From: Odiellus spinosus | Taxonomy: Eukaryota; Arthropoda; Arachnida; Opiliones; Phalangiidae | Direction: 5' to 3' | Length of the DNA: 64,000 nt | Assembly: GCA_963920705.1 (NCBI GenBank) | Contig: OY987228.1 | Location: forward strand, 18,546,565-18,610,564 | Part shown: one piece after another, positions 7,317 through 51,871 of the stretch | Layout: every line of letters starts with the position of its first letter | Numbering within the stretch: the stretch's first letter is position 1 | Made by a program: the position numbers and the translations under genes | The notes under the pieces: model-generated | The model's database searches: none | Seen by the model: only the letters and a program-made list of their open reading frames with translations | What the model was told of the DNA's origin: nothing

Positions 7317-7323
7317 CTTAACC

Positions 7324-7659
7324 CAGAAGCCGATGAAACCCTCCTTTGAAGTCTACTACTACAATGTTCCATATAGCGCTCCTCTCTGTATGGGTAAAAT
7401 TCCCAATTTTACGAGTTAGAAGGGGTCTACTTCATCCCCCCTGTCTACGGAAAATTGGAAATTCTCTCTCTTCACAAACGACGACGTTTTTTGGACGAAC
7501 TCCAAGGCTGCTAGAGATATTCGCTCGACAAGCTCCCGCTCCGAAAACATCTACCGTTAGGAGGCGTACGAATCGAGCCTTTTGAGAATAACCCATACAG
7601 AGAGGGGTAGACAAGACCCGGGAGTAATAGACTTCAAAGGAGGGTTTCATCGGCTTCTG
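7324..7659 (+). mobile_element. Family A MITE, copy A1
   Basis: 336 bp beginning CAGAAGCCGATGAAACCC and ending with its exact inverse. The outer inverted repeat is about 32 bp, and a second inner pair (CTCTCTGTATGGGT / ACCCATACAGAG) lies inside it. The target duplication CTTAACC (7317-7323 and 7660-7666) is exact and 7 bp. ORFs of 72-79 codons on both strands are the same reading-frame accident in every copy; no coding function is supported. Confidence 0.93.
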
Positions 7660-7683
7660 CTTAACCCTATAAAAGTAAACAAC

Positions 7684-7835
7684 GCAAAGGGCCAGGTAAA
7701 CGTACTACCCCAACACTTAAAACTAGCCAAAAAAATCATCACTCCTGTCTGGCTCGTGTGATTTGGACTCGATATTTTGAGTAAGGAGAGAGGGACGGGA
7801 TTTAGGCGGGCCGCGCTTGGCTAATATTGTCTTGG
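7684..7835 (+). repeat. Dispersed repeat I, copy 1
   Basis: About 150 bp shared with 31448-31556 (same strand) and 53391-53515 (opposite strand). Shared words include GTGATTTGGACTC, ATATTTTGAGTA, GCGGGCCGCGCTTG and GCAAAGGGCC. The outer limits are uncertain. It begins only about 20 bp after MITE A1. Class unknown: it could be a SINE or a MITE remnant, and no tRNA-like promoter boxes were convincing. Confidence 0.6.
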
Positions 7836-8386
7836 TTTAAAAAAATTCCATTCAGTGGTACATTTTGAAAGGAGCTATAGGAAGCGAAGTTTTCCAATTC
7901 ACCCTCTCTTTGAAGAAAACATTAAGTTGTTTTATGTTTTTGTTTATTTTTTGATTAATGGAAGGCTAAAATTTTCTAATTTTGTGAAAACTCAAATGAA
8001 ATAAAACTATATATAAAAGCATGAAAAATACGTGGGTGGGAGAGATACGAAGGTTATAGACTCTCATTAAACACAATTGCCTCTATAGAAGGTGAAACAC
8101 GTTTACAAGAGACAAATAGAAAAGAAATGAAATGGTACCCCTATGGGCTAGCACAAACATGGCATCGGTTTCAAAATTTTTCTATAGAAATTTCTGCCTT
8201 GGAAGAGATTGATTCTGGTGGGCCGTGATAGGCTGTGTATTTTACCCAAGATGCCCTCGACTATCTAACCGCTATGCATGCCGGTAAATTTACACTGCCA
8301 AGTCTAATATCTACTTTTCATAACGTATTTTCCAACGTTTAAAGCCAAAAGAACGGGAAGAAAGAGAAATTTCACAAATAATGTGA
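7836..8386. other. No gene seen
   Basis: Unremarkable AT-rich sequence between repeat I and the B1 element. No supported ORF. Confidence 0.5.
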
Positions 8387-8393
8387 TTAATAT

Positions 8394-8812
8394 CAGAGGT
8401 TTATAATAACCCCCTTCGGGGGGAAGTATGAAAGGTAGGCAAAATCGACGAACAACAAGTGCCCGGCGTAAATCGCGGCGGATCGACACACCGCTTTACT
8501 CCCAAAAAATAATTACACCATTTTGAACCTCACTAAATTTTCCCTACGCACACTTCCGGAACTCGCGAGCTGAAGTCAACCTTCGACTCCATTTTAACAG
8601 ACAGCCTGACTCCTGAGATAGGAAGTTCTAAACACAAATCGAGCCGTCTTGTTTATACAAAGACCATTTACTAGAGTAGCGACATTGAGAAGTCCAGCGC
8701 GAGCTAGTGGCCTAGATAGTCAGCAGCGGGCTCTTGTTGTTCGTGACTTTTAGCATTGGTAGTATAGGGGCTTTCATACTTCCCCCCGAAAGGGGGTTAT
8801 TATATACCTCTG
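8394..8812 (+). mobile_element. Family B MITE, copy B1
   Basis: 419 bp with ends CAGAGGTTTATAATAACC and its near inverse. The target duplication TTAATAT (8387-8393, 8813-8819) is exact and 7 bp. Each terminal repeat contains its own small hairpin (CCCCCTTCGGGGGG at the left, CCCCCCGAAAGGGGG at the right). The interior is not palindromic and is GC-richer than the flanks. Copy B2 (39501-39918) differs at only five positions, so both inserted recently. Non-coding. Confidence 0.92.
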
Positions 8813-8819
8813 TTAATAT

Positions 8820-10864
8820 TAAAAAAAAAACGAGATTTATCATTTTTTAAAGTCCGTCATTTTTGACGAGAAATAGCTAGTCTTTGATAATCCTAAACTT
8901 CAATTCAATTGGTAAAGATAAAATATTTGATGTTTATCACGGGGGTGCAGGCTAATTTTTAAGGTATGTACGATGTCGCCGTATATCACACATTATCTTT
9001 AAAATACAGACTTATAATTTTAACTGGTCATTATAGAACACCAACTCAGCCTGTAGACAAAAAAGAAAGGTGATTTGCCAAAAGAATAAAAGCCCATACC
9101 ACGCATAGACTATAATAAAAAATCATGGGGGAGTTTTGCGGGTATTATAACAAGGTTTCGAATGCCAGCGAGGTCCCCACCCATTCATTTTTAATAGTTA
9201 TATAGTCTAACATTACCTTTTCTTCACAAACTATATAGGTACGTATTCAATTCTATATACGTTTTTTTCTAAAGTTCTCAACTAGAGTCGTAAAAAACAC
9301 AAGATAATCGCCAGTCTCGTTATATAAAAGTATACGAGAAAAAAAGATATTCTTAACGTGTTATTGCTAGTTTTTTTACGAGGGGATATTCTTAGTTAGT
9401 TAGCTTAGCCCCCAAATGACAAAATCAAGTAACTCGAAAATTTAATATTGGGAAAATTAAAATTGAAGTTCATATATTTCCTACTAAGTTAATTAAATTA
9501 ATTTAGGGATAGCACCCTTGATGGATTAAAATCTTGATTGCAAATTAATATCATACCTTCCAATGCGCATGGCTTGTATTTTAATTAAATTAAATTAGTC
9601 TGATTAAATCGTTACTCTGAAACAAAGTGATCCGCGCCCCTCAGGTTGATATTAGTGAGAAAAAAGATTATGTTTGATAGTTTGAAAGATTTCAGAGAAA
9701 TTAAAATATCAAATAATATTTTTAGTATTTTTTAAAAAAAAAAAATTATGGGTTTCAGTGACTTTACTTGCAATTAGTGTTACCTAAGATCACTAGTTAA
9801 AGTCTTAAGCGGTCTTATTTTAAATTGACTGGTATAGGTTTATGTTAATATTTGACTGAATTTCAAAGATCTAAAACAAAGAAGTAAATATCTCTGGTAT
9901 ATAAAATATCGTGCTAAAATGTAGTTACAATATTTTGGCATTTAAGCTTAATCCCAGTTTTCTCTATACAGATACGCGCAAGGTATACCTACAATCAAAA
10001 AACGCCTCGCTCTTTTTAAGTGCGGGTTTTATGTCGAGAAATATACACTCTGATTTCATTAGGCGTCATGGCTACACCCGCCCACCTGATCATTTATATT
10101 TTCAGATGGATAGTGGAGAGCTTCGCAGCCAAATAGAAACAGAGAAAGAGAGAGATAGTGAGAATAATAATGCCAAGCTTGGAAAAGTTTTGTTTGACAA
10201 AGAAAATACAATATACATATATTTTTTTTTCTTACGATCGTGGAGAAATAATTCGCGGGTTTGGGAAACTTATCAGATGATAGCGGCGCATTTTGTGAAT
10301 CGATCAACGTCAAATTGTTTGTGGTTATTATTATTAAAAAGAAAATTATAAGTTTCGTTTGAACCTATCTGTTTTCAAAAATCTCGTAAATTGATAAAAT
10401 AATAAATTATAATTAAGGTTATTTGTAAATATTATTATTGATTAAACCTTTCAATAATTTTAATTTATTCATTGTTTATAATTATATTTTACTATATGGA
10501 ATAGCCGTGTGACTTTCGGGTTTAAAACTCGGTAATTATGATATAGTTATATCTAGTGAATTTACTTAACCATGGAGTGTTACTGCATTTAATGTTCTTA
10601 AAACCACCTCTAAACAACAGGTTGTAATTATTCAAATATATGGTTTAGTATTTAGTTAAAAAGAAAATGAGAGGAAATGCTCTGGAAACTATTATAAATA
10701 TTATATCAACTGTTTACCAATAGAGCTCAGATACAAAACTCATTGAAATCTTCCAAAATATTAATCTATTCTTGGACTATTTTGAAAGTCGAGCTAGAAA
10801 TCTAATTCCTATTCAAAGTTATTTTTTGAGGTTGTCATAACAATCGAAAGGGTGTCGGCTACCA
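8820..10864. other. AT-rich DNA with one weak ORF (9911-10351)
   Basis: The longest non-repetitive ORF of the window, 146 codons on the plus strand, lies at 9911-10351. I do not recognise it. Its middle contains a plausible 3' splice site (ATTTATATTTTCAG at about 10092-10105) before a Glu/Lys/Arg-rich stretch, but the downstream part is AT-biased and Leu/Lys/Phe-rich, and the opposite strand is also open at 10059-10313. Probably non-coding. The rest shows no repeat or gene. Confidence 0.35.
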
Positions 10865-13800
10865 TCAAAGAGGACATATACTTCCTTCTAGATACGGTAC
10901 GCGCCAAATCTCGTGACTATTAAGAAGACACCGAATTCCGCGAGGAACCAAAGCGAAAGACGCGAGGTTTCGGGTATCCCTATTAAAATCTGGGACAGAA
11001 GGGCGACAGTGGCGCGGCGGGAGTTCTCTTTTCCACTTAAAAAAGAAGGTTCCTCGATGGCGATGCCGCGGGACCCTTCCAGGCGACTGATTTCTCGGTT
11101 TGTTTTCGTCGATAGCAACCTGTCCGATGAACCAGAATGCATTGTCACCACGCGTGAAAATATAGCTCAACATGTCCCCGACTTATTCGGAACAGACAGC
11201 TAAGGTCTTTGACGGGCCCCCGGTAAGCGCCATAGACGCGAAAGACCGCGGGAGGGGAGTGGAACGAATATACTGGGCACCAAGGCACGGCTCGGTAGAG
11301 TCCTTAGAAATTGGTGCGAGGGCTTCTTTTCCCCTTGGAAGAAAACGGAGATAAGATTTAGTTTAAAAAGGGAATATTATTTTCCAGGAAAACCGGGCAT
11401 TCGCCTCATTAGTTTCGGCCAAGGTGGCGACCTTTTGTTTCGTGTATTTCGAGAAAAACGGTTTTAAAAACGCGTGGCATGATAGAAAATGTAGAAATAT
11501 GGCCTACGGATAAGTGGCCTGTTTGCACCGGCGGAAATACTTCGTTGGAAAGAAGCTACTTATATAAAGAGCCCTATTTCCAAAGAATGTTTCTAAAACG
11601 CGTGAGATAAAATGGGTCTTGAATAAAATATCGAAGAATCCTCTCATTACGGATCTATTCAAGTATTGAACCATTGATCGGCAGATTAATGATTGCTATT
11701 GAAAGGGAAATCAAATATATTCCCATCGTGCGAACGCGTCACCTATCAAACCTCCTTCCCTTTTGGAAAATATAGTGGATAATTCTTCCGCGGCTTTAAC
11801 TAGCTAGGCCTTTCCGAATTCAACTGCGCATTGGCGCCAAGACCAGGACAGTTCTCAATCAAATAGGGGCTATATAGTAGTCCTCACCGTCTTCCCCCCC
11901 TCTCTCAACCATCCCCCAACACCGAGTTCACCCCGCGAAACTTCAGCTTCTTCAGTTATTCCTCTAGAGTCTACGTCACGGATGGCGACGACTTGGCGGC
12001 AGCGAGTGGTCTGACCTCCGGTGGCGAACGTCCAAAGCATCGCTCGGCTCTTCTTCCTTCCTTCAGGGTGGTTGATGGGGTGGTGAGGGTTCAGCGGGGT
12101 TAAGAAGGTAGATGAGGAGGACTGGAGGAAAGAGAAGGGGACTATATCGTCCCGCGAAACGCGCGGAGGAAAAAGGAATAGAAAGGGAGATCATGTTGGA
12201 GCGCCTTCCGCGGGGAGTCTCGTCAATTCCCCTACAATCCCATCGTATCCGATCCTCTTCTTCATTTCGAGGCACGAGGTATCATCTCGAAATTCGCCCA
12301 GTATCAGAGGCAGAGCAAACAGTAGGCGCGTGAGCTTATAGGGGATGGGGAGGCTTATTTCGGACGCGACGAGACGCTATCGCGTGTCGTATAAAACGCT
12401 TGATTGACTGTCAGCCAATATTCCCGCCGTTTTTATTTGCATTCGTCCAGAGTTTTACAGTTAGGCAAACCCTCGACCAAAGCTAATACCGTTGAAATAA
12501 ACGCGGCTGCGGGAGATACCGGGAATTTTCTCGAGTGTAATAAAGAAGAAGGAACCGAGATGAGCCGATAATAATACGCTCCCCATCTTCTCTTCGACCC
12601 CCGAGATTCTTTCCCATCGAATCCAATTCGGATTTTTCCTTCAGGTTGACAGGTTGAAGAAGGTTCGACCGGATTCCTCTTCTCCGAGGCTCCGTAATAA
12701 TCAAAAATTAAAATCATAAACTAATTCCTTCAAGAGGAGTTACTCGAGAGGGACTACTTTTTTTCCAATAAGGTTAAACATTGTACGCGAATCCGCCTTG
12801 GCTTTTAGAATTTTGCCAATTACGCTAGATGTAAAACTACGCTCGTTCTCGCTCTTAATGGAATGGGTGGTGATTTCCCTTAAATCGGTCACGTTTTATT
12901 CCAATTTAATGGGTCTTCGTCAAAATTCCAAAAAAGGGAAATTCGCGTAAAATTGTTTACCCCTCGTGAAGTTAAATCAATAGAAAATTGATCTCTCCCA
13001 TCCTTTACCATCATACGATTTATGACGGAGAATGTGTTTAGTTTTAGCGCAATATTACGCGTGTAAGACGAGGGGGAATGAGAAGATCGATACTCTTTTC
13101 GTTGGGGTAAATATTTATGTACCTCCTACGACGTTTTTCCCGGGAATCGTGGTTTGGGCTCTCACCGTTCGTGTCTAACTAAGGTAACTGCCGTAATGAA
13201 GACAATCGTGGGTTTACAGCGTCCGCGATACCCGACTATCGAGGCACCCGAGTCTCGCGCGGGGTGAAAACTTAAACCCAGAGTATCTAGTTAGCCCCGG
13301 AGGGTATCGAGAACACCCTCTTACACCCTACTATCGCGAGCCACTATAGGCGAGGGCGCCAATTATTCGATGGCCGATAGCTCGATCTTGGCAGTCGTGG
13401 CACGGGGCGGAACCCGGCCGCCAGCACCATCTACGGTATACCCCCTCACCTCCCAGCCTAGACGTTGAAGATTTCCGAGAACGGCCCGGAGCTGACGAAA
13501 AGTGGCGCCAGACTCTGTCCCCCTAGTCTTTCCCCCGAAAATTATTCCTGGCGCGTAGTTTCGCGATGCTCCTCTTCTTTTCAAAACGCTAAAAAGAATG
13601 GTCCACCTTTGGGGGTGGCGGAGAAATTATGTCCCAATTCTTTTCCCTCGAAAGAAGAAGAAGAAAAAAAAAAGAAAGCCACGAGAGGGGCTTCGAAATT
13701 CATCGCCGTAGCTCCGGAGAATTGATGAAATGAAAACGTATTGTTTCCGAGGCGCGGTTCGTGACGACGCTATCAGGATAAGCTGACTTCGAGACCGTTT

Positions 13801-14900
13801 TACCGATAAGGATTTTCGGCCCAGGGAAGCTCTGGTTCGAGTCCTGATGGATATACGCGAGGGGAAGTGATCTGTAGTGGGAACTTGACAAGAAACGCGA
13901 TTTTCAGCGCACGATAGCGTCGAAGAATGTATCCAAGAATCTCTAAAAACCTTTTCTAGTTGGAAGAAGATTTGTATAACTTCGTTGCGAAAACTAAACT
14001 GCGCGAATTTAAAATGAAGACTATATACTTGCGAACGAAAACGAGACTGCCATCTAGTAGAGGGGGAGGCAAACCAGAATTGGAATGACTACCTTTCCCC
14101 CGGTAATAGTCTATCCAACCGCGAAATAATTATAGTTTTGAGGATAAAGACGCTAAGGGTACTTATCACGGTGTAGATATCTCGAAGAGAGAGAAGGAAG
14201 CGAATTGAAGAAAAATATGAAAAAACAATAATAATTTTCTGCCAAAAGTCGAGGCGTGAACTGTTTGTTTATTCTCGGTTCTCTCTCTCACCTGCTGTTT
14301 GGCGCTCCGAAGATTGATAGACACGATAAAGGAGATGGAGAGAGAGTGTGTGTGTATTTGAGATTTTCCCAAAAAAAAAAAAGTAACACGTTTCGTTTTA
14401 ATAGGCCAATAAGATCACGAATCTCGCTGAAGAAGAAGAAACTCGAGAAGTTGCGAAGGAAGAAAAACATCTGGGAATTGGAAACTCGCGATTAGGTTTT
14501 TTTTTTTTCGACTATAAAAAAAAAAGATTCGAAGCATACACGAGCGGAGCGTGCAAGGGGGTTCAATATCGGGGTGGCGAGCGAGAAATAATAATCGCCT
14601 AGTCTTAAGTTTTAGACACCTTCCATTTCAACCGCGGGATTCCAGTAGGAAATCAGATTGGGTTGCGGTGGACGCCTTCGCGTCACGTTGGGCCTTCAAC
14701 GCTCTTTTAATATCTCGAGCTTTAGTCCCTGACTCGAATCGTGACGCTATCTATCAGCGTCAAAATTCTGGCCGGAAACCAAATCTCCCCTCTCCATCCC
14801 CCTCTTAAAATCATTTAATATAAATTTCTATCGCCTCGATGGAATCTCGTGCGTAGTAAAAAAGGGTACTTGCACACAATACAATTAACATCAATTTTAA
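10865..14900. other. GC- and CpG-richer tract, possible regulatory or exon-bearing region
   Basis: Composition shifts clearly: CG dinucleotides and purine/pyrimidine tracts are frequent. Overlapping ORFs of 60-102 codons occur on both strands (for example 10913-11203 plus, 10865-11173 minus, 12433-12717 minus, 14551-14808 plus), as expected of random GC-richer DNA. None has a domain I know. Candidate promoter words lie at about 11872 (CTATATAG) and 12390. No splice-linked gene model could be built by eye; an unannotated 5' exon, enhancer cluster or simply a compositional domain are all possible. Confidence 0.4.
12390..12443 (+). promoter_or_regulatory. Weak candidate core promoter with octamer
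   Basis: TATAAAA at 12390-12396 is followed by an initiator-like TCAG at 12411. The spacing, about 23 bp from TATA to the initiator A, is shorter than the usual 28-31. An exact octamer ATTTGCAT (POU-type site) follows at 12436-12443. The surrounding tract is CpG-rich. No coding exon is identified downstream, so this is only a motif-level suggestion. Confidence 0.15.
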
Positions 14901-14959
14901 AATAATTGATCAGCGAGATGTCAATTTCAGGAATAAAAATATATCACAATGAACTTTTG

Positions 14960-15195
14960 ACATATTCATAATCGTTTTAAGCATCACGTGTTCACGCATT
15001 ATCTTTATAAATCGATTTATCGTAGCTTCATCTATCGGTTGTTGAAACCGAATCGGTAAAAAAATGGTTCCGGAAGCAGTTTCGAGAAATCGAATCAAAT
15101 CGATTCGAGAAAAGACGATTTCCCTTTCACACGACTCCAGCGAAACGTTTTGAAACTGTTTAAATAGAGTCTAAGGCCTTGTATGAATGCACTAA
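14960..15195 (+). mobile_element. Family J MITE, copy 2
   Basis: Shares the J core (TATAAATCGATTTATCGTAG, TCGGTTG, AAATGGTTCCGGAAGCAG) and the right end GTATGAATGCA with the copies at 4895 and 49905. The left end is degraded, so the start is approximate. It includes the J-family E-box CACGTG at about 14986. Confidence 0.6.
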
Positions 15196-17160
15196 AAAAT
15201 TACCGTACGTATTTAGCATTGCCAAAGGCAATAAACAGTTAAGTGCATACAGATTTTAAGAAAGTGGTTAATCCCTCGAATTTGGTGGCGAGACTTTCGA
15301 CGCAACTTCAGGGTTCTCATCAACTCTCATCAATTTGATAACTTAACGAATAAAAGGAGATAGTCCCTCCCGATTCCGTCCGTATTTACGAGTATGTTCG
15401 CGCCACGAGATAAAGCGCGGTGCCATTCGTATCAACAACTCGTCAAAATAAAGTTTCTAGGGAAAAATATTTGCGAAAATAAAAGCTTAAGAGCTTTCCT
15501 GGTAATATAGGCTTATACGAGAAGGGTCTTTATCACCTCTTAAAAAGGGCAACGTTTTCATTTCTTTTTACGTTCGCGCTCCCACGAGTCCCACCCACGG
15601 TTATCGTAAAAACGGATCCTCGATAGTCAGCTATTTCACACGCGGTGGCGACAATGTTTTGGTAGTTCTACCACGTTTTTATCTACGCTCTCATTTGTTT
15701 ACGAATACCCGGCGAAGAGATATACTCGTACGTACGTAGACATTCACTACCGAGTTAAGTCGAGGCCATTATACCACGAGCGGAGTATCGCCGTTTTTAT
15801 ACGCGGCGTAAACAAATAAATTATCTTCTAGGCTCCCGACGCGTTACCGCGAGGTTATCGTCTACAAACTAAAACACTTTTCGTGTCGCGCGGTTCGCGA
15901 TAGGGACACTGCCGAGCAATCGTGGAGAAGATAGCGCGACTCGAGCATTTTAAACGATCGCGAAACAACGAACTACTCTTTTTCGCTCGTACGCCTCGTT
16001 CAGATAGCTAGGCTAATGAAAAACATCGAAAAACAGTCGAATAAGAAAACAAGATAGGAACGCGTGTAGAAAATGCAAAAACACCGATATACAAACACCC
16101 CTCCCGCGCCTTATCATAGTATCAGTTCCTATTAACTTATTAAGTTAACAAAGACAAGGATATTCGAGAATTTAGCGTCACTAAGGAGTGGCCCCATCTT
16201 CAAAAACTATCGCGCAGTTTAAAGAAATCGTAATTCAACGTAATCGTAAGTTTCTTGGCTCGCGAAAAGTCAAAAACCACCCACACGTAATACGAAGAAT
16301 TTAAAATTTTCTTCGCCAGATAAAAAGATGGGTGCTTTTCTTCTGACTGGCCAACCTTATCTCACGTTGCGTGAAGAAATATATTCGTATATTTTATATA
16401 TTTTTTTCGCTTATATTTTAGAAGTTTTTGGAAGAATATTTTTTGAAAGGTGGTAGACGTCTATTTGAAAAGAAAAAGATCGAAAGGATGGCGAGTGAGA
16501 AACGGCGGGAAAGACCAGTGGCGCCAAGAAAACTAAAGAAGGCTAGGAGAAACTAGTAGGGGAAGGTTGAGGAGGGTGGGAAAAGGGTCGGTTACTCCTC
16601 CCCCCGCCCGCCGCCACTACGCGTACATAAAGTACACCGTAGTCGAAGGATGGGATGCGGATGACCACCCCGAGTGGATAATGTTCTAGCTGCGTGGCAA
16701 GATCCTCTCTCTTTTCCTCGAGATCGCCTTCTCCTTATCAGCGCTGTCATATCGTAAACAAGCACGAAATGGCCGCGAGAAAGAATGTTCTCCTTTTTAA
16801 AGCCCTTAAAACATCCTTATACAATTTTCAAGTTTCTCGCACTGAGGGATGAAACTATATTTACGTAGTATTATGGAAATATGGCGGATACTAACGCAAT
16901 TCTTATTAAATTATTAAAATTTTAAATTAGAAAATTCATAGTTATCGAAGATCTTACAACTTTGGACTATAACGCTCCCCCTTCTCATCCCATCTTGAGA
17001 CTGGAGGTCACGTGTGTGACGGGTGCGTATTTGGTTAAAACTAAAAACGTAGAATTTGAAATCTTGAGCTTGATTACCCATTTTGTTAAATCTATGGTAC
17101 CAGCTTTTGATGCGAATAAGAGTAGAACTATGGGTCTTTAAACCGATCATCCCCGCCACC
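15196..17160. other. Continuation of CpG-rich tract, no gene seen
   Basis: CG-rich words (CGCG, TCGCGA) persist to about 16.8 kb, with purine-rich blocks at 16490-16600. Only short ORFs are present and nothing is recognisable. Composition returns to AT-rich near 16.8 kb. Confidence 0.4.
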
Positions 17161-17177
17161 AGTTTCTAAAAGTCACT

Positions 17178-17193
17178 CCCCCCCCCCCCCCCC
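17178..17193. repeat. Poly(C) tract, 16 bp
   Basis: Uninterrupted C run, unusual in this AT-rich window; another long G/C run is the G13 at 6902-6914. Confidence 0.9.
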
Positions 17194-19600: not shown

Positions 19601-19609
19601 GATGAATGC

Positions 19610-19885: not shown

Positions 19886-20018
19886 TACTGGATGAGTCAA
19901 TTATTTCATTGTTCGTTTACCTAAGAAAAATTTAAAATAATTAATGCCTTTTTAAAATATTTAAAAAATCCAATTTTACATTTTGTAAAGCTTAAAATAG
20001 CGGTATTTCTTGTAATAC

Positions 20019-20355
20019 CAGAAGCCGATGAAACCCTCCTTTGAAGTCTACTACTCTAATGGTCCATATAGCGCTCCTCTCTGTATGGGTAAAATTCACA
20101 ATTTTACGAGATCGGAGGGGTCCTACTTCATACCCCCTGTCTACGCAAAATTGGAAATTCTCTCTCCACAAACGACGACGTTTTTTTTTGACGAACTCCA
20201 AGGCTGCTAGAGATATTCGCTCGACGAACTCCCGCTCCGAAAATATCTACCGTTAGGAGGCGTACGAATCGCGCTTTTTGAAACTAACCCATACAGAGAG
20301 GGGTAGACAAGACCAGGGAATAATAGACTTCAAAGGAGGGTTTCATCGGCTTCTG
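20019..20355 (+). mobile_element. Family A MITE, copy A2
   Basis: 337 bp, same orientation as A1, with the full CAGAAG...CTTCTG ends. Exact 7-bp duplication GTAATAC (20012-20018, 20356-20362). It is somewhat more diverged than the others: an AT-richer inner part, and a T-run in the region corresponding to TTTTTTGGACG. Non-coding. Confidence 0.93.
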
Positions 20356-20460
20356 GTAATACGAATACAAATAATTGTTTTTCTCGGATAATTAAAGTAT
20401 TAAATTGTAATTTCGAGATTAGCGTCCACGTGATTAGTCCTAGATAAAACCTAATCTAAT

Positions 20461-20716
20461 CATGGGCCAAGAAACGATAAATCCAGGACATGACTCTACC
20501 GTCTATTAAAAGAAACAGGCTACGTCATCACCGTACCGTGATGACGCGTTTTTTTGGGGTCAAGTTTGTACAGTCAAAGCTATGGCGTTTTGGGAGCAAA
20601 GTGACGTCATATGACGTCACAAGCTGTACGAAGGCTGTTTGTTTTGGCCGACCGAGAATTTTATTCCCTCAAACAGGGAAGACTCACGTCCTGGATTTAT
20701 CGTTTCTTGGCCCATG
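20461..20716. mobile_element. Family E MITE (7-bp duplication)
   Basis: 256 bp with inverted ends CATGGGCCAAGAAACGATAA and its inverse, about 32 bp with one mismatch. Flanked by an exact 7-bp duplication ATCTAAT (20454-20460, 20717-20723). The interior holds two secondary palindromes: an imperfect one near 20523-20546 (CATCACCGTACCGTGATG) and a perfect 20-bp palindrome at 20601-20620. Single copy in this window. A 75-codon ORF spanning it is incidental. Confidence 0.85.
20601..20620. promoter_or_regulatory. Perfect palindrome with two CRE words
   Basis: GTGACGTCATATGACGTCAC is its own reverse complement and contains the full CRE octamer TGACGTCA twice. It could bind CREB/ATF-type bZIP factors. 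It sits inside the E family MITE, so it would be spread by transposition; function is inferred from the motif only. Confidence 0.5.
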
Positions 20717-21795: not shown

Positions 21796-22055
21796 TAATT
21801 GTACCCTAATTATAATTATATTAGATAGTTTTACCAATATTAAAATAATTGTATCATAATTACTACTATATATATTGAAATATTAAATTTAAATTAATTA
21901 TTAATATAGTAGTAGATATTGATACATTAAAATAGTTATATTATTAAAAATAAATAGGCCCATAGGGAATATCCAACATCCTGCATTTGCCTGTATTAAT
22001 TGGAATACGGGAAACAACATGGTCTGTCAACTCCCTATATATTTATTTAATAACT

Positions 22056-22441
22056 AAAATTTATCATTTAAAAACTAAAATTTATCATTTAAAAACTAAA
22101 ATTTATCATTTAAAAACTAAAATTTATCATTTAAAAACTAAAATTTATCATTTAAAAACTAAAATTTATCATTTAAAAACTAAAATTTATCATTTAAAAA
22201 CTAAAATTTATCATTTAAAAACTAAAATTTATCATTTAAAAACTAAAATTTATCATTTAAAAACTAAAATTTATCATTTAAAAACTAAAATTTATCATTT
22301 AAAAACTAAAATTTATCATTTAAAAACTAAAATTTTTCATTTAAAAACTATAATTTATCATTTAAAAACTATAATTTATCATATAAAAACTAAAATTTAT
22401 CATATAAAAACTAAAATTTATCATATAAAAACTAAAATTAT
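22056..22441. repeat. 21-bp minisatellite, about 18 units
   Basis: Head-to-tail unit AAAATTTATCATTTAAAAACT. The first 13 or so units are essentially identical; the last five drift (TTTTCATTT, TATAATTT, ATATAAAA variants), a normal edge effect of unequal exchange. Because 21 is a multiple of three, one frame stays open for 153 codons and reads as a repeated KIYHLKT heptad. No start context, splice signal or homology supports translation. Confidence 0.97.
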
Positions 22442-23369
22442 ATCATAATTATGTCCTTACATCTAGGTGATTAAGTCCCCCAGACCCCCGCGACATTATA
22501 ATCCATTTTTAGTAAAAATTGGGAGCTTTTTGAATCAACTCGTTGAAAATTAAGAAGCCCTAAAACGTATCTTGAGCGTTACCCGCATACCCCCGCGAAA
22601 AGCAGTCATCGGTAAGCATCGCTCCCCCCCCGTAGATCGCCGAAGTCAAAGATCGTAATCATCAATAAGGCACCCATCACTTACCCCTAAAAAAATCAAA
22701 TTTCTGAAACTCACCGAATTTGGGGGGACCAAAAGAGATTACATCCCAAATTCCTGATAGTTTAGACATCCTTTGCTCACGTATTACAAGGATTAACGAT
22801 ATTTTAAACGCGAATTAAACCGAATTTAATTTTAGTAAAACACCAGCGTACCGTTACTGTTAGGAGCCATATTACTCTAGACGGGGAAGAAGGGGGAGGC
22901 CCGAGGGGGGGGGGCGTAACGAGAGGGCATGACTGGAAATAAGCAAAAATATTCTAGAGTTGCATTATGAGTGGCAATTCGAACTAATAAAAATAAATAA
23001 ATATGCAAAATTATGAATAATTAAAACATTTTTAAGTGTTTTAAAGCTAAACTAAGGTTGAAAATAATTATAATAGTTTTAAAATTTAACCTGACTCACG
23101 TCAATTGTTATAAAATGTTTCAAGATTGATAAAAATTAATTGAAAACGAATATTAAACAAATAATTAGGGTACCCATGGAGTAATAACACTAATAGCTAT
23201 AGGAGTAAAAGGTATAAAAAGTTGTAATATTAAATTTAAATTAATTATTTTTGTAGTTTTTAAAGTGAGGCTAATAATAGACACTTTCACGAGAGACTCC
23301 TTGGATTCGAGGCTAAACGCTAAAAGGCTTAACTTATGAACAAACTTATCCTACCACGGCGACAATCTC
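22442..23369. other. No gene seen
   Basis: AT-rich sequence with a G-rich patch near 22890-22920. No ORF or inverted repeat was recognised. Confidence 0.5.
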
Positions 23370-28221: not shown

Positions 28222-28388
28222 TAGAGATCGGGGTTTGGACAAAATAATCCACAACTATCAGTTAATCAGTTCATCATAAAAATAATCGGAAAATTACATT
28301 GGATTTATCATAGACTTTCCTCGAAAAATTTTAAGTTATGAATAAAGATAAAATAATCAGAAATTTCTTGTCCAAACCCCGATCTCTA
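28222..28388. mobile_element. hAT-type MITE (family F)
   Basis: 167 bp with ends TAGAGATCGGGGTTTGGACA and the exact inverse, about 21 bp. The target duplication CCTCTGAA is exact and 8 bp (28214-28221, 28389-28396). TAG...CTA ends with an 8-bp duplication are typical of hAT non-autonomous elements. Single copy in this window; AT-rich, non-coding interior. Confidence 0.85.
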
Positions 28389-34739: not shown

Positions 34740-35075
34740 CAGAAGCCGATGAAACCCTCCTTTGAAGTCTATTACTCCCGGGTCTTGTCTACCCCTCTCT
34801 GTATGGGTTATTCTCAAAAGGCGCGATTCGTACGCCTCCTAACGGTAGATGTTTTCGGAGCGGGAGTTCGTCGAGCGAATATCTCTAGCAGCCTTGGAGT
34901 TCGTCCAAAAACGTCGTCGTTTGTGGAGAGAGAGAATTTCCAATTTTCCGTGGACCGGGGGGATGAAGTAGGACCCCTTCTAACTCGTAAAATTGGGAAT
35001 TTTACCCATACAGAGAGGAGCGCTATATGGAACATTGGAGTAGTAGACTTCAAAGGAGGGTTTCATCGGCTTCTG
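34740..35075 (-). mobile_element. Family A MITE, copy A3
   Basis: 336 bp, inverted relative to A1. Exact 7-bp duplication CCATGTG (34733-34739, 35076-35082). Both terminal and subterminal inverted repeats are intact. A 117-codon plus-strand ORF crosses the whole copy; it reads the same antisense frame seen in other copies and is not conserved as protein. Confidence 0.93.
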
Positions 35076-38885: not shown

Positions 38886-38888
38886 TAT

Positions 38889-39493: not shown

Positions 39494-39500
39494 GTATCAG

Positions 39501-39918
39501 CAGAGGTATATAATAACCCCCTTCGGGGGGAAGTATGAAAGGTAGGCAAAATCGACGAACAACAAGTGCCCGGCGTAAATCGCGGCGGATCGACACACCG
39601 CTTTACTCCCAAAAAATAATTACACCATTTTGAACCTCACTAAATTTTCCCTACGCACACTTCCGGAACTCGCGAGCTGAAGTCAACCTTCGACTCCATT
39701 TTAACAGACAGCCTGACTCCTGAGACAGGAAGTTCTAAACACAAATCGAGCCGTCTTGTTTATACAAAGACCATTTACTAGAGTAGCGACATTGAGAAGT
39801 CCAGCGCGAGCTAGTGGCCTAGATAGTCAGCAGCGGGCTCTTGTTGTTCGTGATTTTTAGCATTGGTAGTATAGGGGCTTTCATGCTTCCCCCCGAAGGG
39901 GGTTATTATATACCTCTG
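39501..39918 (+). mobile_element. Family B MITE, copy B2
   Basis: 418 bp, same orientation as B1 and differing from it at five positions by eye (four substitutions and one deleted A). Exact 7-bp duplication GTATCAG (39494-39500, 39919-39925). Terminal repeats contain the CCCCCTTCGGGGGG hairpin. A 71-codon minus-strand ORF overlapping the left end is incidental. Confidence 0.93.
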
Positions 39919-39925
39919 GTATCAG

Positions 39926-41200: not shown

Positions 41201-41204
41201 TTAA

Positions 41205-42786: not shown

Positions 42787-42789
42787 GGC

Positions 42790-42816
42790 GAGACTGACTG
42801 ACTGACTGACTGACTA
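42790..42816. repeat. (ACTG)n microsatellite
   Basis: About six consecutive ACTG units. Confidence 0.9.
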
Positions 42817-45640
42817 AGAGAGAGGTATAGTCTATCCTGGCCAGAAAAAAAAGGACACGCGTTAATGGCAACTTGACGGCTGCTAAAAAGCCACTGATTA
42901 TCACCTGTCACTTCTGTTAGTTTTAGAAAAACGGCGATCTAGAAATAAAAAAAAAAGAGGAAGGAACGGAAAAAAAAAGATCTCATCGGACAAAAAGGTG
43001 GCATCCTGTTTGTTCAAGAGCAATACCAATCGTAGTTTGCCTTTTTACTGATATAGTACGTTTTGCGTGTATAAATTGGGTTTAAAATCTAAGGATTTAG
43101 GGTTAACTGTATACGATTGACATCTTGGAAGTTGAAACTTGGAACAATGACTGTGAAAACATTTTTAATAACGTTGCATGAATCAAAAACGCCCGTTTTC
43201 AATTAAGGGTTTTCAAGCTTAAAATTGCTTTTGACAACCTTACATAAAATTCATTTCACTTCAAGCTTGTTAACGTGGATTACACGAAAAGCTTGATTAA
43301 GTTTCACCTTTGTTTGGATGCAAAAGTTTCCGTAAAAAATGCGTTTTTACACGGTTATATCGTGACTTTCATTGATTGTGTTGTTTTTCCAATTGAAACA
43401 TGAAAGCGCCAAACTAAAGCAAAGTATAGGAGAGTATATTCTAAGGTCGGTCTGGTGTATTGGGTTAGATGTTTGAGAGCACGAAACTGAGTCAATCGAA
43501 GTAGGCAGGCTATAATGATACCACGAGCTCGATTCCGAGAAAGAGAAAGAAAAAAAAAAAACCAACTAGCTATAGCTCGCAGCCAAGGGGGCACTTAAGA
43601 AAGTGGCGTGCAGACTATCATTTCCGCCTTAAGGCTCAAAAAACCAAGAGTGTCAATTTTATCGCGATTAATCACAGTCTTGTTAGCATTAAGAGTTCTT
43701 TTTTTCTCTATATATATTTCTACAGCTATATATGTGGCTGGCTTTGGACTATTTCCAAACAGACAAAACGCGCGAAATGTAAAAAAGGGGGATTTCGTTA
43801 TTTAACCCCTCTGGCTATCTAGTAACTGTATAATAGGCTATTTAACATTAGTGCGCGGTTAAAAAAATGTAGAAAAAACAAGTTGAGTAAGTAAGAGTGA
43901 TAAAGACGTGGGAAAACTGGTACAAAACAGTGGGTTTTTCAATGTGATATGTTTGATGTTATTTATTTAAAATGAAATAATAAATTAAATATGTGAAAGA
44001 TTTAAAATAAACAAAAAAGTCTGGGAAAGACATCTTATAAAGTCAGCCAATAAAAACTTTCCCCTACAATATCATGGTATGGCAGAGCGAAGAAAAACGG
44101 TATCTCTTCTCTTCGCACCCCCCAGACACGAACTATTTGGGAGCTCTACATGGATACTACTTCGTTGCTATTCCGGTAAATATGCAAGGGGATGCAACGA
44201 ACAAAGGCAAGGTGCAAAAGAAAGTTAATAAATGAAAGGTGACAAAGGGAATGCAGGCGTTTTTCAAACGTCAGAGGTGTACCTATTGTATGGGCTTGAC
44301 CATATTGCTTTAATTTATTTTTGGAAAGCTGTCACAACATGATGATAACACCACAATACGCAACAACTCTTTCGTGCCATCCTACCGTAAAAGATCATTT
44401 CAATATACCTTGGATTAATAAACTAAAAAATACCAGTTTAAAATCCCGTACGAAGGTCATGATTTCTTTTTCTTTCATTCCAGATTTTTAATTACCGCGT
44501 AGGTAATAAAAACCTCGATATAACAAGTATGCCCCAGTACTAGAATGCTATAGTTGAATTATTAAAACAACCAGGATGAGCCAATCAGTTCAATACCGGT
44601 TTTTTTTTGGCTTTATTTTTTATTTAACCCCAAATGGGAGGGAGACGAACATAATTACAACGCCTTAAATACGCGCGAGTTATTACGGATAACAAGGTGA
44701 AGATTTTTACCAAGGAAAAAGATTTCAAGATGCTTACTAAATACCATTGCTATCCAATGAATGCAAATTACGAGAAGAAAAAAAAAATCCAATCTTTATG
44801 AGAGGGAAGTTCGTTTATGACTAGAGGGAGAATTGAGGGGGCAAAATATTCGTATAATATCTCAATCTCAAATATAATCATACGCGAAATAACGACACTA
44901 GCTAACTCGAATTCGTGACGGTGCGTTGAAGATAAGAACCGAAAAATATTTATATATATATATATATTTCGGGTTCCGTGGTGTAACGAAAAGCGACTAG
45001 GGTGGGCCAATTTTTATTCGTTTTTGCCCGCTTTTCTTCCCATAAGTACCCCTTTTGGTGAAGAAGTAAAAAAAAATATTTAAGATTTAGTCGAAAGCCT
45101 CGCGGGGTTCCCGCGCAGGAAAAAAAATATATATATCAGCGTGCGAAGGGTGTTTTAAGATTCAAAAAAGAAAGAAGTTATAGTTACGCCCCCTATCAGT
45201 AAATAGGGCACTGACACCGAATATACTTGTGACGTTGACGTCAAATTTCGTGACAAGAAAATATCAAGATTTTGAAATAAGATATATTTCGATCAAATAC
45301 GTTTTTAATTTTCGGAATAAATTATAAAATATTATTCAGAAATGATTTAATTATACTTTACAGAGAATCACCTAGTGTCCAGTTTGACCCTTACAATGGG
45401 AGGAGCAATATAGGAAGCGGTATTATTATAATAAGCCATAGGTTGGATTTATCTGTGTGTTCCGGATCCGGTGGCTGATTATTGCCTCCAAATTTTAAGC
45501 GATGACGTTATTTCAAAGTTCACGCGTTTGCTATGATGTCAGAGGTATCCAGCAATTATGCGAACGCCGAAACAGTTTGAAACGCTTCCAAGCTTAAACA
45601 GCCTTCTAATACTTTTGTATATCGGTTATATGGTTTTGTT
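42817..45640. other. AT-rich DNA, no gene seen
   Basis: Unrecognised ORFs of 65-80 codons; a TA microsatellite at about 44949-44967. The word CTCTGGCTATCTAGTAACTGTAT at 43808 is split here as CTCTGGCTATCTAG plus TAACTGTAT and resembles miR-9 only superficially. No dispersed repeat was identified. Confidence 0.45.
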
Positions 45641-45836
45641 TCTCAGCTGCATAATTCGTCACGTTTGGAATTTCGCGTCACGATGACGTAAAATTAGGAG
45701 CCAAAAAGATACCGGATTGATTTTTAAAATGGTACGAGAGCATTAGGAAAGATATGGAAGAAAGTTTAAAAACCTTCTAAAATTTGGTAGTAATTCTCTC
45801 CGAATTAGAATTAAATCAATTCTTGACATTATTATC
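45641..45836 (+). repeat. Dispersed repeat M, copy 1
   Basis: About 190 bp alignable to 51872-52036 in direct orientation: TCTCAGCTG, a CGTCA...GCGTCACGA pair, AAGATAC, then TTCTCTC, GAATTAGA and AATTCTTGACATTATTAT. The 3' end is sharpest. Class unknown. Interestingly both M copies lie close to A elements (A4 starts about 105 bp downstream; A6 ends about 150 bp upstream of M2). Confidence 0.6.
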
Positions 45837-45941
45837 CTTCTTTCCTAATTTCTATTGTATATACCCTATAATTATATTTATAAATGAACTTATAAATTTA
45901 TATTTATAAATGAACTGAAATTTTCGGATATTTCTGACTAA

Positions 45942-46279
45942 CAGAAGCCGATGAAACCATCCTTTGAAGTCTATTACTCCCAGGTCTTGTCTACACCTTT
46001 CTGTATGGGTTAGTTTCAAAAAGCGCGATTTTTACGCCTCCTAACGGTAGATATTTTCGGAGCGGGAGTTCGTCGAGCGAATATCTCTAGCAGCCTTGGA
46101 GTTCGTCCATAAAAACGTCGTCGTTTGTCGAGAGAGAGAATTTCCAATTTTCCGTAGACAGGGGGTATGAAGTAGGACCCCTCCGATCTCGTAAAATCGG
46201 GAATTTTACCCATACAGAGAGGCGCGCTATAAGGAACATTAGAGTAGTAGACTTCAAAGGAGGGTTTCATCGGCTTCTG
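45942..46279 (-). mobile_element. Family A MITE, copy A4
   Basis: 338 bp, inverted relative to A1. Exact 7-bp duplication TGACTAA (45935-45941, 46280-46286). Slightly diverged (CCATCC for CCCTCC at the left terminal repeat). Non-coding. Confidence 0.92.
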
Positions 46280-46445
46280 TGACTAATTATATAAACACAA
46301 GCAGCCCCAAAATTTAATAAGCGCCTGCAGAAATGTTTTACCCGCTATGCTTGCTCTTTCGAGGAAAAGATGCCACACAGGGTGTGCTATATAGTGCTTC
46401 AAGCCTTAGAGTAAAAACCGGTTCTCTACGGAAATTTTTAATCTA

Positions 46446-46555
46446 AGCAAGATTGAGGTTTAAATTTATTTCTAGTTTAATATTAATTTTTTTACTGGTG
46501 GATTAGACCTAAATTTAAATCCCAAGGAATCAATAAAAAAAAATCGCTACTTTTT
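46446..46555. repeat. Family D fragment (D6)
   Basis: Contains TTTAAATTTATTTCTAG, TTTAATATTAATT, GGTGGATTAGACCTA and CAAGGAATCAATAAAAAA, all from the right arm of the D element. No termini remain. Confidence 0.6.
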
Positions 46556-47555
46556 TAACTATAAAATATATATTCCGTTAACTCGAATCTAAATAAATAC
46601 GGTTCTAAATAAATCAAAAACTTTATTACGAGATTTAATTGCCTATGAAAAATTACGGTAGAATTTGTGAACCGGAAACGAAAAAACATAAAAGATTATG
46701 GATATATAAAATAGCGTGAGTAGCGACTATTAAGGCGTTATATTTTGGTAGCTGATGTCCATATAGATGAAACCACGATTCACGCAGTGAGAAAGATGGA
46801 GACGAATGAACTTACGTGTTGCAGTGAATTTGACAACTTAATTTAACCAACGAGAATTAATAATCCCAAAAACGTCTTCATTTGTTCAGTATATAAAAGT
46901 GGGCCTCCCGATGACGTCACCCCATTCCCCTTAATATTCGATTGTGTTTGGCTAATGGGAAAGAGAGCGGCGATACTACGATTAACCCTTCAACTTTGAT
47001 ATATAAATTCGAATGAGGGAATGAAAAATATTAAAGGTAAAAGATACCTTATAAGACCAATAGCTTAATCTAGGATAATTTTAATTATTATTTCCAAAAG
47101 TTCGAAACTAAAAATTGTTTAAAAGAAATGGAGTGTAATACGAGATAACCTAATTTTTAGTTTTTTAGACCCTAAATTAAGATATTTATTAATAAAATTC
47201 AATGTATATAAAATAGTTTATTGGCAGAAACGGTATTAAAATAAGCATACGTTTAATTTTCGTACTTCCAGGTCGAAAAACATTTGAATCCCGCTCTGAG
47301 AGAAGTACATGCAAGCCAATCAAATCTCTTTTTTAGGCAGTTATATGCCAGCATTATTAAATTGTTTGCAACAGATTTTTAGGCAAACTAGTCGGCTTTG
47401 ATATATTATTTGGGCATGGTTTGCAAAAATATGTTTGGCAAACTAATTAAACCCTAGCGTCCAACTTATCGTAGAATTCCTCGAAAGAACTACACATCAC
47501 CACTAGGCAGCTAGATTTAGTATCTAATTAATTGTCTCAAATAGAAAAATATGTA
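46556..47555. other. No gene seen
   Basis: AT-rich sequence with no ORF above 60 codons outside the next MITE. Confidence 0.5.
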
Positions 47556-47562
47556 GTTTTAT

Positions 47563-47899
47563 CAGAAGCCGATGAAACCCTCCTTTGCAGTCTACTACTC
47601 CAATGTTCCATATAGCGCTCCTCTCTGTATGGGTAAAATTCCCAATTTTACGAGTTAGAAGGGGTAATATTTCATCCCCCCTGTCTACGGAAAATTGGAA
47701 ATTCTCTCTCTCCACAAACGACGACGTTTTTTGGACGAACTCCAAGGCTGCTAGAGATATTCGCTCGAAGAGCTCCCGCTCCGAAAACATCTACCGTTAG
47801 GAGGCGTACGAATCGCGCCTTTTGAAACTAACCCATACAGAGAGGGGTAGACAACACCCGGGAGTAATAGACTTCAAAGGAGGGTTTCATCGGCTTCTG
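47563..47899 (+). mobile_element. Family A MITE, copy A5
   Basis: 337 bp, same orientation as A1. Exact 7-bp duplication GTTTTAT (47556-47562, 47900-47906). Terminal repeats intact apart from one change (GCAGTCTA for GAAGTCTA). Non-coding. Confidence 0.93.
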
Positions 47900-47906
47900 G
47901 TTTTAT

Positions 47907-48727
47907 TAATATCTATAGCGATGAAATATACTAGCGATGAAAAAAGCGTCTTTTTCCTTTAAATAAATGATTAAAGAGGCTCTACGAGCGATGTTTAAAG
48001 AGCCGGAACCAAATCATCCAAAACGGGTATAATTTACACTTTCCCGATAGCCGCGCGATGGTGATTAAGTTCGGAGGTACTAAAAAAAATAAAAAAGAGA
48101 ATTTTAAAGAGGAAATAAAAATCGGTGAAAATGTTTGCGATTGGAAAACGCGCTCGGAATACTTAAGGTCGAGAAAAAAATAAATTTTTTCGCTTTTTTA
48201 CGAGGCGAGGCGTCTGTTATCTAGTTCGAGTTGATAACTCTCGAATATAAAAATCTTTTTCTTTCTTTCTCTCGCTCGCTCTCAACAGATGATAGCTTTA
48301 ATTGGGATTTTAAAAAGTATAAAGAGGATTGCAGGGGCGAGCTCTAAAACCTTTTCCATGATTTATTATTCGTACGCAAATAGAGTCATTAAAAATGAGA
48401 GAAAACTGTTGGGATGCGAAGATTATCTTATTACGAACTTTTTTCTTTTAAATTAAACCATTTTAATTGGATTATTTATGCTATTCCTCTTAAATTAGGC
48501 TTATCCAAATCTTCATAATTATAAAATATAATATTTTTCTCATATACGACAGAGTTTAAATTTGAGGACCTGGCTACTCTTGAACTTTAAAATGAAACTT
48601 TATCATAAGTTTAATAATAGATGTTAGTATGACAATTAAAAACCTAGTTATTTGTTATGTTAAGTACAGTATTACATCAACCAAGATGCATTTGTTACTT
48701 ATGATATTACTATTTGATATACTAATT
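47907..48727. other. No gene seen
   Basis: AT-rich DNA with a CT-rich patch at about 48253-48285. No ORF above 60 codons. Confidence 0.5.
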
Positions 48728-48731
48728 TTAA

Positions 48732-49210
48732 AGGGAGAATGAAAGGCCAAAACAACCTATTTTTAATCGATTAAGAATGTTAAAATAATGAGAAAAACAA
48801 TAATATAACTCACCAAAAATATTTCGTTATTTTTTAATCAATTTCCAAAGTTCCGAAACTTGCAGATGCTAAGCCTTGGCTTCCTAGCTCGGCGAACTAG
48901 GCGAACACGAGCCGTTTTTTCTTTAATATTCTCGTCTGATCTAGTCGCCAATTACGAGCGAGTACGCGTATTTTTAAAATACGCGTACTCGCTCGTGATT
49001 GGCGACAAGAACAGCCTAGAATATTAAAATAAAAATACAGGTCGTGCTAGCCTAGTTCACCGAGCTAGGCAGCCTAGGCTTAGCATCGGAACTTTGGAAA
49101 TTGATTATAAAATAACGAAATATTTTTGGTGAGTTATATTATTGTTTTTCTCATTATTTTAGCATTCTTAATCGATTAAAAATAGGTTGTTTCGGCCTTT
49201 CATTCTCCCT
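48732..49210. mobile_element. TTAA-flanked palindromic MITE (family O)
   Basis: Ends AGGGAGAATGAAAGGCC and its inverse, flanked by TTAA (48728-48731, 49211-49214). Almost the entire 479 bp is one inverted repeat with arms of about 240 bp and few mismatches. The centre contains a perfect palindrome at 48956-48993 (GAGCGAGTACGCGTATTTT and its inverse) with essentially no loop. Termini resemble family D (AGGGAG), so the same transposase could act on both; interiors are unrelated. Single copy here. Confidence 0.9.
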
Positions 49211-49214
49211 TTAA

Positions 49215-49900
49215 ATATATGTGGGGATGTTATTAACAATGAAGGTTTTCCCCTCTAATTAATTTAAATTAATTTCCAACGTGTAATGTCATTATAATAT
49301 AAAAATTATGTATGATAAATGCATAATAAAAAAAACCAATTATTATCATTTTTTTTTTCAAAGTAATAAGGATTTCGAAATTAAACAATTAATATAATAC
49401 ACGCTTATATTTAGTTCAAGGAAGGATAATTACGCAACAGCAATTATCAATTCAAATTATATAACTGTTACCTCTAGAAAATTGTGAATTTTCACTATTT
49501 TAAAAGAATTTAGGTAACATTTAATATATGTTTTAATAATTAAGGCTTTGCCATTATATTAATTTTCACGGAATAAATTACTGTTTTTTTTAAATAGATC
49601 TCGAACCCAAAAAAAGAAAGGTATACTCGATAATTATATTAATGAAGAAGTGCGTCGTATTTAGCACACTCCGAATAGCAATCATCGCCCCGGAACGCGG
49701 GAGCGAATATTTATCAGCAACCCATCAACAAGAAAAAAACTAAGATAAATTCGAGATAAAACAAGATGTTGAATACGACTAGTTCGGGTTTCACCGAAAA
49801 TTGCTTAACTGTTACATCGAGTTGATTAAAATACCATAATAAACTGAAACTTTCGTAATAAAATAACTCCTATTATCTAATCGGATATAATTCACTTTAA
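49215..49900. other. No gene seen
   Basis: AT-rich low-copy sequence. Confidence 0.5.
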
Positions 49901-49904
49901 GCTG

Positions 49905-50152
49905 CGTTCATACTAGACCTTGGAATCGATTTAAAACTTTTCAAGTCGATTTGATTCGATTTCTCGAAACTGCTCCGGGAAGCATTTTCGTACCGATTTG
50001 GTTTCCGCAACCGATAAATGAAGCTACGATAAATCGATTTATAAAGATAATGAGTGAACACGTGAGGCTTAAAACGATTCCTGGCGATTTTAATATCGAT
50101 TTGATTACGTACCGTTTCAAATCGATTAATAAATGCAAGTGTGACCGTACTA
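49905..50152 (-). mobile_element. Family J MITE, copy 3
   Basis: Inverted relative to the copy at 4895. One end reads GCTGCGTTCATACTAGACC after TTAA (49897-49900 region), the other ends AAGTGTGACCGTAC before TAAA. The core ATAAATCGATTTATAAAG and the E-box CACGTG are present. ORFs of 75-83 codons on both strands are incidental. Confidence 0.7.
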
Positions 50153-50247
50153 AAATTAAAAAGAACAATTCGATCCCTACATCATCTTCGACGATTCAAT
50201 AACTGATCGAACCATTTTTTAGGCCTAATTTTCACCTTTGCTGGAAT

Positions 50248-50451
50248 CAGAGAGAATTTAGAAAGGGAGTGGAAGGTGGGGCTTGTAATGTAGCGCAACG
50301 TCGTCTGCTAAACTTATCTGGCCAGGCCGATTTCCGGCATGATGCGTTTGTAGGCTATCGAAACCGGAAACTCGCCTGACTTTTTGGGCGTCATCACGTT
50401 TAGTAGAGTGAAAGGGGGGGGACTTTCCACTCCCTTTCTAAATTCTCTCTG
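50248..50451. mobile_element. Family G MITE (7-bp duplication)
   Basis: 204 bp with ends CAGAGAGAATTTAGAAAGGG and its inverse (about 27 bp). Flanked by CTGGAAT on both sides (50241-50247, 50452-50458). An 8-bp reading (GCTGGAAT) is possible if the last G is assigned to the flank, but then the ends are asymmetric. GC-richer interior, single copy here; it shares a 16-bp word with 30471. Confidence 0.8.
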
Positions 50452-50458
50452 CTGGAAT

Positions 50459-51378
50459 ATATCTCTTGCCAGGAAGAATCTCTTGATACTACACGTGGAA
50501 CAATTTCAGTATCTTTACTATTATATTTGTTATAAGGCGTAACCAAAATTAATTCAGGGACTCGTTTTAGTATTCCGAGAGTTATAAGAAACCTTAACCC
50601 AAGGCTGAGAATATATTAAAAAAAATACATAAAAAATAACAACTGTAGTTTTCTTTCCCCCTTAGAGTGGCTGGTGAAAAAAAAAGGTAACCTAAAATTA
50701 ATGATGAAAAAATAAAGAGAGCTAGTCTTGATCGTGATCAATATACATAGGGTTCTGCCCACGGAATAAGCGATATTGACATATGATAATTTCTAATTTC
50801 AACAAAAAACATTACTTAAGGGGAAAGATTCCCTCCCCAATTTAAACCTCCCCTTTTGCCCGCTGAAACATTTTTGATATCATTAATCATACGAAACATT
50901 TAGTAAAAAGGAAAAGCCTTGTCTATATAGTCTCAATAGCGTATGAGTTTGTCAGATTTTTATTTTATCCCTCGAATCTCCTATACCACATTCTAACCAT
51001 TTAAATATTAAAAACCTTCTCCCCGAAGTATTATATCCAGTCTCGTTGCTTAATTTTAGAATATGAAAGGGGAGAGAATCATTCGTGCGTGGAAATTATT
51101 CTGGATAGAGTTGTAAAATCGAAATTATTTCGGGAATTGTTAAAGGGGAGGACCGGGGAGAAAAATACCAAATCGCTTTTGTCAGGTAAAGGTTTCGATT
51201 GAGATAACAGAGAGAATTTTAAACTTGACTATTTTCATTGTTTTAATAAAAATGGTTCAAAAGAATTCATTTCCATAAGATACCCCCTTTCCCGTACTTC
51301 GTTTCAAACGCCTTCAAATTTAATACAATATATAAAAGGTCTGGCTTTTTTAAAAATAAAAATTTTGAATTTGTATAA
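50459..51378. other. No gene seen
   Basis: AT-rich low-copy sequence with no ORF above 60 codons. Confidence 0.5.
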
Positions 51379-51385
51379 ATACAAG

Positions 51386-51722
51386 CAGAAGCCGATGAAA
51401 CCCTCCTTTGAAGTCTACTACTCCAATGTTCCATATAGCGCTCCTCTCTGTATGGGTAAAATTCCCATTTTTACGAGTTAGAAGGGGTCCTACTTCATCC
51501 CCCCTGTCTACGGAAAATTGGAAATTCTCTCTCTCCACAAACGACGACGTTTTTTGGACGAACTCCAAGGCTGCTAGAGATATTCGCTCGACGAGCTCCC
51601 GCTCCGAAAACATCTACCTTTAGGAGGCGTACGAATCGCGCCTTTTGAGAATAACCCATACAGAAAGGGGTAGACAAGACCCGGGAGTAATAGACTTCAA
51701 AGGAGGGTTTCATCGGCTTCTG
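51386..51722 (+). mobile_element. Family A MITE, copy A6
   Basis: 337 bp, same orientation as A1. Exact 7-bp duplication ATACAAG (51379-51385, 51723-51729). Open frames of 71-107 codons on both strands match those of the other copies and are incidental. Confidence 0.93.
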
Positions 51723-51871
51723 ATACAAGTACTTGAAAATGTACTTAACGAACATAGTGGCCAATTTAACTATCACGAGGTTTAAAGTAATTAGAACATT
51801 GATACCTTCAGGGCGCACGTCTCGTTTACCCCCTTCCTAGATGGGGAGGAAAAATAGGATTTGGTCTTATT

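Follow-up and report, generated by a model that had tools for sequence, protein, structure and literature searches.

A 64-kb stretch of the Odiellus spinosus genome, referred to here as the window (all 64,000 nucleotides analyzed), carries several families of miniature elements (MITEs) that are flanked by direct duplications of 7 bp. Which kind of transposase moved these elements is the question raised by this locus. A preliminary description had listed ten 7-bp duplications in four families (six in A, two in B, and one each in E and G), and all ten were present at the places it gave. The CA...TG termini that it reported were also common to families A, B, E, and G. An additional family, H, was absent from that description and supplied an eleventh element; thus, 11 elements in the window combined CA...TG inverted repeats with a perfect 7-bp duplication. 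These elements, with the lengths of the terminal inverted repeats (TIRs), are as follows:

3142..3456, no strand assigned, family H MITE, duplication GTTATAG, TIR about 35 bp (91%), TIR CAAGAATCCATTCA
7324..7659, no strand assigned, family A MITE, duplication CTTAACC on both flanks
8394..8812, no strand assigned, family B MITE, duplication TTAATAT
20019..20355, no strand assigned, family A MITE, duplication GTAATAC
20461..20716, no strand assigned, family E MITE, duplication ATCTAAT, TIR 29 bp (exact)
34740..35075, no strand assigned, family A MITE, duplication CCATGTG
39501..39918, no strand assigned, family B MITE, duplication GTATCAG, TIR 41 bp (98%)
45942..46279, no strand assigned, family A MITE, duplication TGACTAA
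47563..47899, no strand assigned, family A MITE, duplication GTTTTAT, TIR about 39 bp (95%)
50248..50451, no strand assigned, family G MITE, duplication CTGGAAT, TIR 27 bp (exact)
51386..51722, no strand assigned, family A MITE, duplication ATACAAG

To place the 7-bp length against other lengths, the window was scanned for exact duplications next to a 14-nt TIR (12 or more matches) over a span of no more than 3 kb, and 20 second-order Markov sequences served as the control. For 7 bp, 11 cases were observed versus a simulated mean of 0.1 and a maximum of 1 in the 20 simulations. The observed numbers and simulated means for the other lengths were 6 versus 1.3 (5 bp), 11 versus 0.55 (6 bp), 4 versus 0.05 (8 bp), and 1 versus 0 (10 bp), and no 9-bp case was observed. 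In a 6-kb version of the scan, most of the 6-bp cases and three of the four 8-bp cases lay within large palindromes (about 6044-6500 and 48727-49215) or were sub-readings of the same elements. The remaining 8-bp case, at 28222-28388 with the duplication CCTCTGAA, resembled an ordinary insertion of another kind.

Three other features of the window were observed during this work. The insertion at 28222-28388 is a 167-bp element with the TIR TAGAGATCGGGGTTTGGACAA and its 8-bp duplication contrasts with the 7-bp set; it is perhaps a hAT-like MITE. The long palindromic elements at 6057-6487 and 48733-49209 have the ends GGGAGAATG or GGGAGGATG within TTTAAA, a setting that would fit a TTAA target of the Kolobok or piggyBac kind. 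At 21940-22527, a 21-bp unit forms an array in which one frame is open (KIYHLKT repeats).

The genome assembly (443 Mb, 286 contigs) was searched for additional copies. Specifically, 20 copies were taken for family A (346 candidates, 40 scored), 20 for family E (324 candidates, 40 scored), and 20 for family G (46 candidates, 40 scored, picked for near-full-length matches), and the window copies of these families were added; 18 of the 20 G copies had CA...TG ends. For family B, 25 of 26 candidates had long matches and 22 had both ends, including the window's own two, and family H was represented by the window copy only (n = 1). Three truncated B copies and the two G copies without CA...TG ends were left out of the counts. 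The copies sampled were those most like the query; hence, intact copies are over-represented. In the case of family B, the 26 candidates are a small share of the family and lie close to the query, because 4743 B termini (2385 + 2358, with up to 2 mismatches) were found genome-wide, versus 20 for a backwards control. Among the 100 places listed of the 4743, B termini were often paired about 400 bp apart.

Tabulating duplication lengths across these copies, a check that the preliminary description had proposed, yielded an exact 7-bp duplication in 70 of the 89 both-ended copies of A, B, E, G, and H, window included. By family, the fractions were 24/26 for A, 20/22 for B, 15/21 for E, 10/19 for G, and 1/1 for H. 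Ten further copies matched at six of seven positions (one in B, four in E, five in G, and none in A or H), and the remaining nine showed no clear duplication. None of the 89 copies had an exact 8-bp duplication at the same ends. When one end was moved by a base, 22 of the 70 exact copies could also be read as 8 bp, versus about 23 expected by chance. Within the window, an eighth base had been said to fail in nine of the ten cases; by our reading it failed in eight, and the A copy at 7324 allows 8 bp, as G does. Two G copies without a duplication (L119 and L120) appeared by eye to have flanks that were swapped and reverse-complemented, indicative of a duplicated or inverted segment. In one E copy (L151), the right end runs directly into the opening 12 bases of an A terminus, and A perhaps inserted exactly at the E end.

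The sites at which these copies are inserted were varied, AT-rich, and palindromic. Across 47 sites, the fraction of complementary positions was 0.447 versus 0.268 for random sites, and the highest of 2000 random draws was 0.390. The second base of the duplication was enriched for T and the sixth for A (T2/A6) at the A, B, E, and G sites, as well as at the P-element sites described below, with matching half-sites in 34/48 (A), 36/40 (B), 24/30 (E), 16/20 (G), and 8/10 (P). A T/A preference three bases outside the duplication was strong in A (39/48) and B (33/40) and weaker in E (18/30); neither the G sites (8/20) nor the five P sites (5/10) were significant in this respect.

At least 150 matches to the P transposase RNase H domain (PF21787; 386 candidates, 150 scored) and at least 150 to the hAT domain PF05699 (220 candidates, 150 scored) were found in the assembly. 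Both superfamilies were therefore candidates, and examples of each were delimited. Seven P-coding stretches were extended, and six could be delimited with paired TIRs:

P39, duplication GTCTGTC, 7 bp
P57, G000:C1:7167009-7170785, start CG, duplication TTTGAAG, 7 bp
P44, G000:C1:507640-512220, start CG, duplication GTTTATA, 7 bp
P52, duplication ATCCGAC, 7 bp
P48, duplication GTTAAAC, 7 bp
P30, duplication GTTATAAC, 8 bp

Thus, five of the six delimited P elements had 7-bp duplications with symmetric ends; extension of the seventh stretch, P45, gave no paired ends or duplication. Only P52 and P57 allow 7 bp alone, because P39, P44, and P48 admit an 8-bp reading when one end is shifted (three of five, versus 1.7 expected). 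The proteins of P39 and P57 contain THAP, RNase H, and GTP-binding-insertion domains. RNase H is also present in a 334-aa piece from P30, together with the Tnp_P_element HTH domain; of the three scanned proteins, this was the only one with this HTH. Two minor features were also seen among the P elements. P57, P44, and P52 share, by eye, an AGGCC motif about 20 bases inside, and about 600 bp of one P locus (L033, approximately 174-788) match L034 and L036 in both orientations, which suggests that a P-transposase gene has a near-palindrome next to it.

Of three hAT elements that were tried, two could be delimited, and both had 8-bp duplications (CTTTTAGC and TTCTGTTT) and TIRs of just 15 bp; the ends of the third (C17) were not delimited. 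The termini of the two delimited elements (CAGTAGCGCC and CAGTGGCGCC) differ from those of A, B, E, G, and H. In the small samples from this genome, then, 7-bp duplications accompany P, and 8-bp duplications accompany hAT and one P lineage. The TIRs of the five MITE families (27-41 bp) are also nearer in length to those of the P elements (about 37-51 bp) than to those of the hAT elements. CA...TG ends do not discriminate between the two superfamilies, because both hAT elements begin CAGT.

These results suggested that A, B, E, G, and H are probably non-autonomous P-superfamily MITEs that are moved in trans by THAP-domain P transposases of the 7-bp kind. Duplication length, ends, the palindromic target, and the presence in this genome of P-coding elements with 7-bp duplications are direct observations; the route from transposase to MITE is our proposal. 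A P-type transposase would bind the 27-41-bp inverted repeats, excise the MITE, and insert it into a palindromic, AT-rich target (T2 and A6) whose strands are cut 7 bases apart. Repair of the gaps would then generate the 7-bp duplication, and the 7-bp P transposases of the same genome would move all five families. The preliminary description had inferred one transposase lineage with a 7-bp stagger. At the superfamily level this holds, with A, B, E, and G sharing length, CA...TG ends, and the T2/A6 preference; between families, the similarity of internal sequences and TIRs was limited to short words.

The closest published systems belong to the P superfamily. The element 1360 of Drosophila melanogaster has a modal duplication of 7 bp with the consensus GTTNAAC, and the P element and hobo have duplications of 8 bp (PMC3276498). 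The Drosophila element Galileo is described as having 7-bp duplications, a few of 8 bp, the consensus GTANTAC, and a 15-bp palindromic target (PMC2775673, PMC4168063). The MITEs resemble both in duplication length, and their symmetrized sites match the published consensus sequences: E sites are GTTNAAC-like, as in 1360 (a comparison by duplication and target), and B sites are GTANTAC-like, as in Galileo. Unlike 1360, small copies are very numerous here, as the 4743 B termini indicate. Galileo differs in that its TIRs are long (tabulated as 10 to 610 bp, compared to 27-41 bp here) and in its outer motif, given as AANGT...ACNTT, where A and B have an outer T/A. The P-MITEs of Anopheles gambiae derive from P elements and share the duplication length of their parents (PMC1562414), which is the relationship that we propose here; however, that length is 8 bp, and their parent elements were found, whereas none was found in the small part of this genome that was searched. 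The statement in the preliminary description that P gives 8 bp is incomplete and does not hold in general: 1360 and Galileo give 7 bp (PMC3276498, PMC2775673, PMC4168063), as do five of the six P elements here. We consider it most likely that the MITEs are new families of the known 1360/Galileo-like kind and not a new mechanism.

The origins that the preliminary description had favored were a variant hAT or a Dada-like element. A hAT lineage with a 7- instead of an 8-base stagger has several points in its favor: hAT proteins are abundant in this genome, the hAT elements begin CAGT, and the CAGAG ends of B and G resemble hAT ends. Palindromic targets are another likeness to hAT MITEs, and the targets of hobo (NTNNNNAN; PMC3276498) likewise have T second and A second last. 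There may also be 7-bp hAT families, inasmuch as PMC4455052 gives "hAT" with "7-bp TSD" as an example query; a literature search for a 7-bp target site duplication together with MITE and hAT found nothing. Against this origin, hAT MITEs have 8-bp duplications, as did both delimited hAT elements with their 15-bp TIRs, and none of the 89 MITE copies had, at the same ends, the exact 8-bp duplication expected of hAT. Neither of the two delimited hAT elements had 7 bp, and P elements of the same genome do. The variant hAT is therefore unsupported, and we regard a hAT origin as unlikely.

Dada is a much poorer candidate. Its duplications are given as 6-7 bp, which would fit, but the published account describes Dada as lacking TIRs and as inserted in multicopy small-RNA genes (U6, U1, or tRNA genes; PMC3706591). 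The MITEs here have TIRs of 27-41 bp and varied, AT-rich target sites, and in the 64-kb window no tRNA was detected and no Rfam family matched at gathering thresholds. On these published features the Dada identity was rejected, and we hold it to be highly improbable. It is also very unlikely, if somewhat less so, that the families come from different superfamilies and reached 7 bp independently. Their likeness only in short words would be expected under independent origins, but the agreement of A, B, E, and G in length, ends, and T2/A6 preference argues against them.

If the MITEs are P-superfamily elements, a 7-bp duplication at CA...TG ends should lead annotators to suspect the P superfamily (1360/Galileo-like) before Dada or an odd hAT; CAGAG-type ends alone might place B and G under hAT. 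A broader idea, which we put forward tentatively and with some leaning against it, is that staggers of 7 bases prevail in the P superfamily here, in divergent lineages that begin with CA or even CG, and that an 8-base stagger marks the canonical P clade alone. Among the three scanned proteins, that of P30, the 8-bp element, was the only one with the Tnp_P_element HTH. If the idea is true, the length of the stagger would distinguish clades of P transposases. Because P elements of both 7 bp and 8 bp seem to occur in it, this genome would be well suited to finding the part of the P transposase that sets the stagger.

Several observations weigh against the preferred P origin: the 8-bp duplication of P30, the shifted 8-bp readings of P39, P44, and P48, the CG starts of P44 and P57, the lack of significance of the outer T/A in G and at the P sites, and the results of the search for a parent element. 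The seven extended P stretches included no transposase gene flanked by A, B, E, G, or H termini, and none of these termini occurred in 10 further P 5' flanks (best match, 14 of 20 bases). A B-like 17-mer (15/17) at the edge of the P30 locus was considered as a shared terminus and rejected; it was internal, and the true ends of P30 lie elsewhere. An A terminus sits 341 bp outside P44, with no second A end and no recognized transposase within 1.6 kb beyond it, and it was provisionally treated as a truncated copy. Among the 100 listed of the 4743 B-terminus places, all on one contig, 23 were picked as unpaired (one of these, at 1902889, was in fact paired), and all 23 were more than 10 kb away from the P and hAT places listed. 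The same 100 places were unevenly distributed along this contig (G000:C1), with most in the first 3.1 Mb and few from there until 16 Mb.
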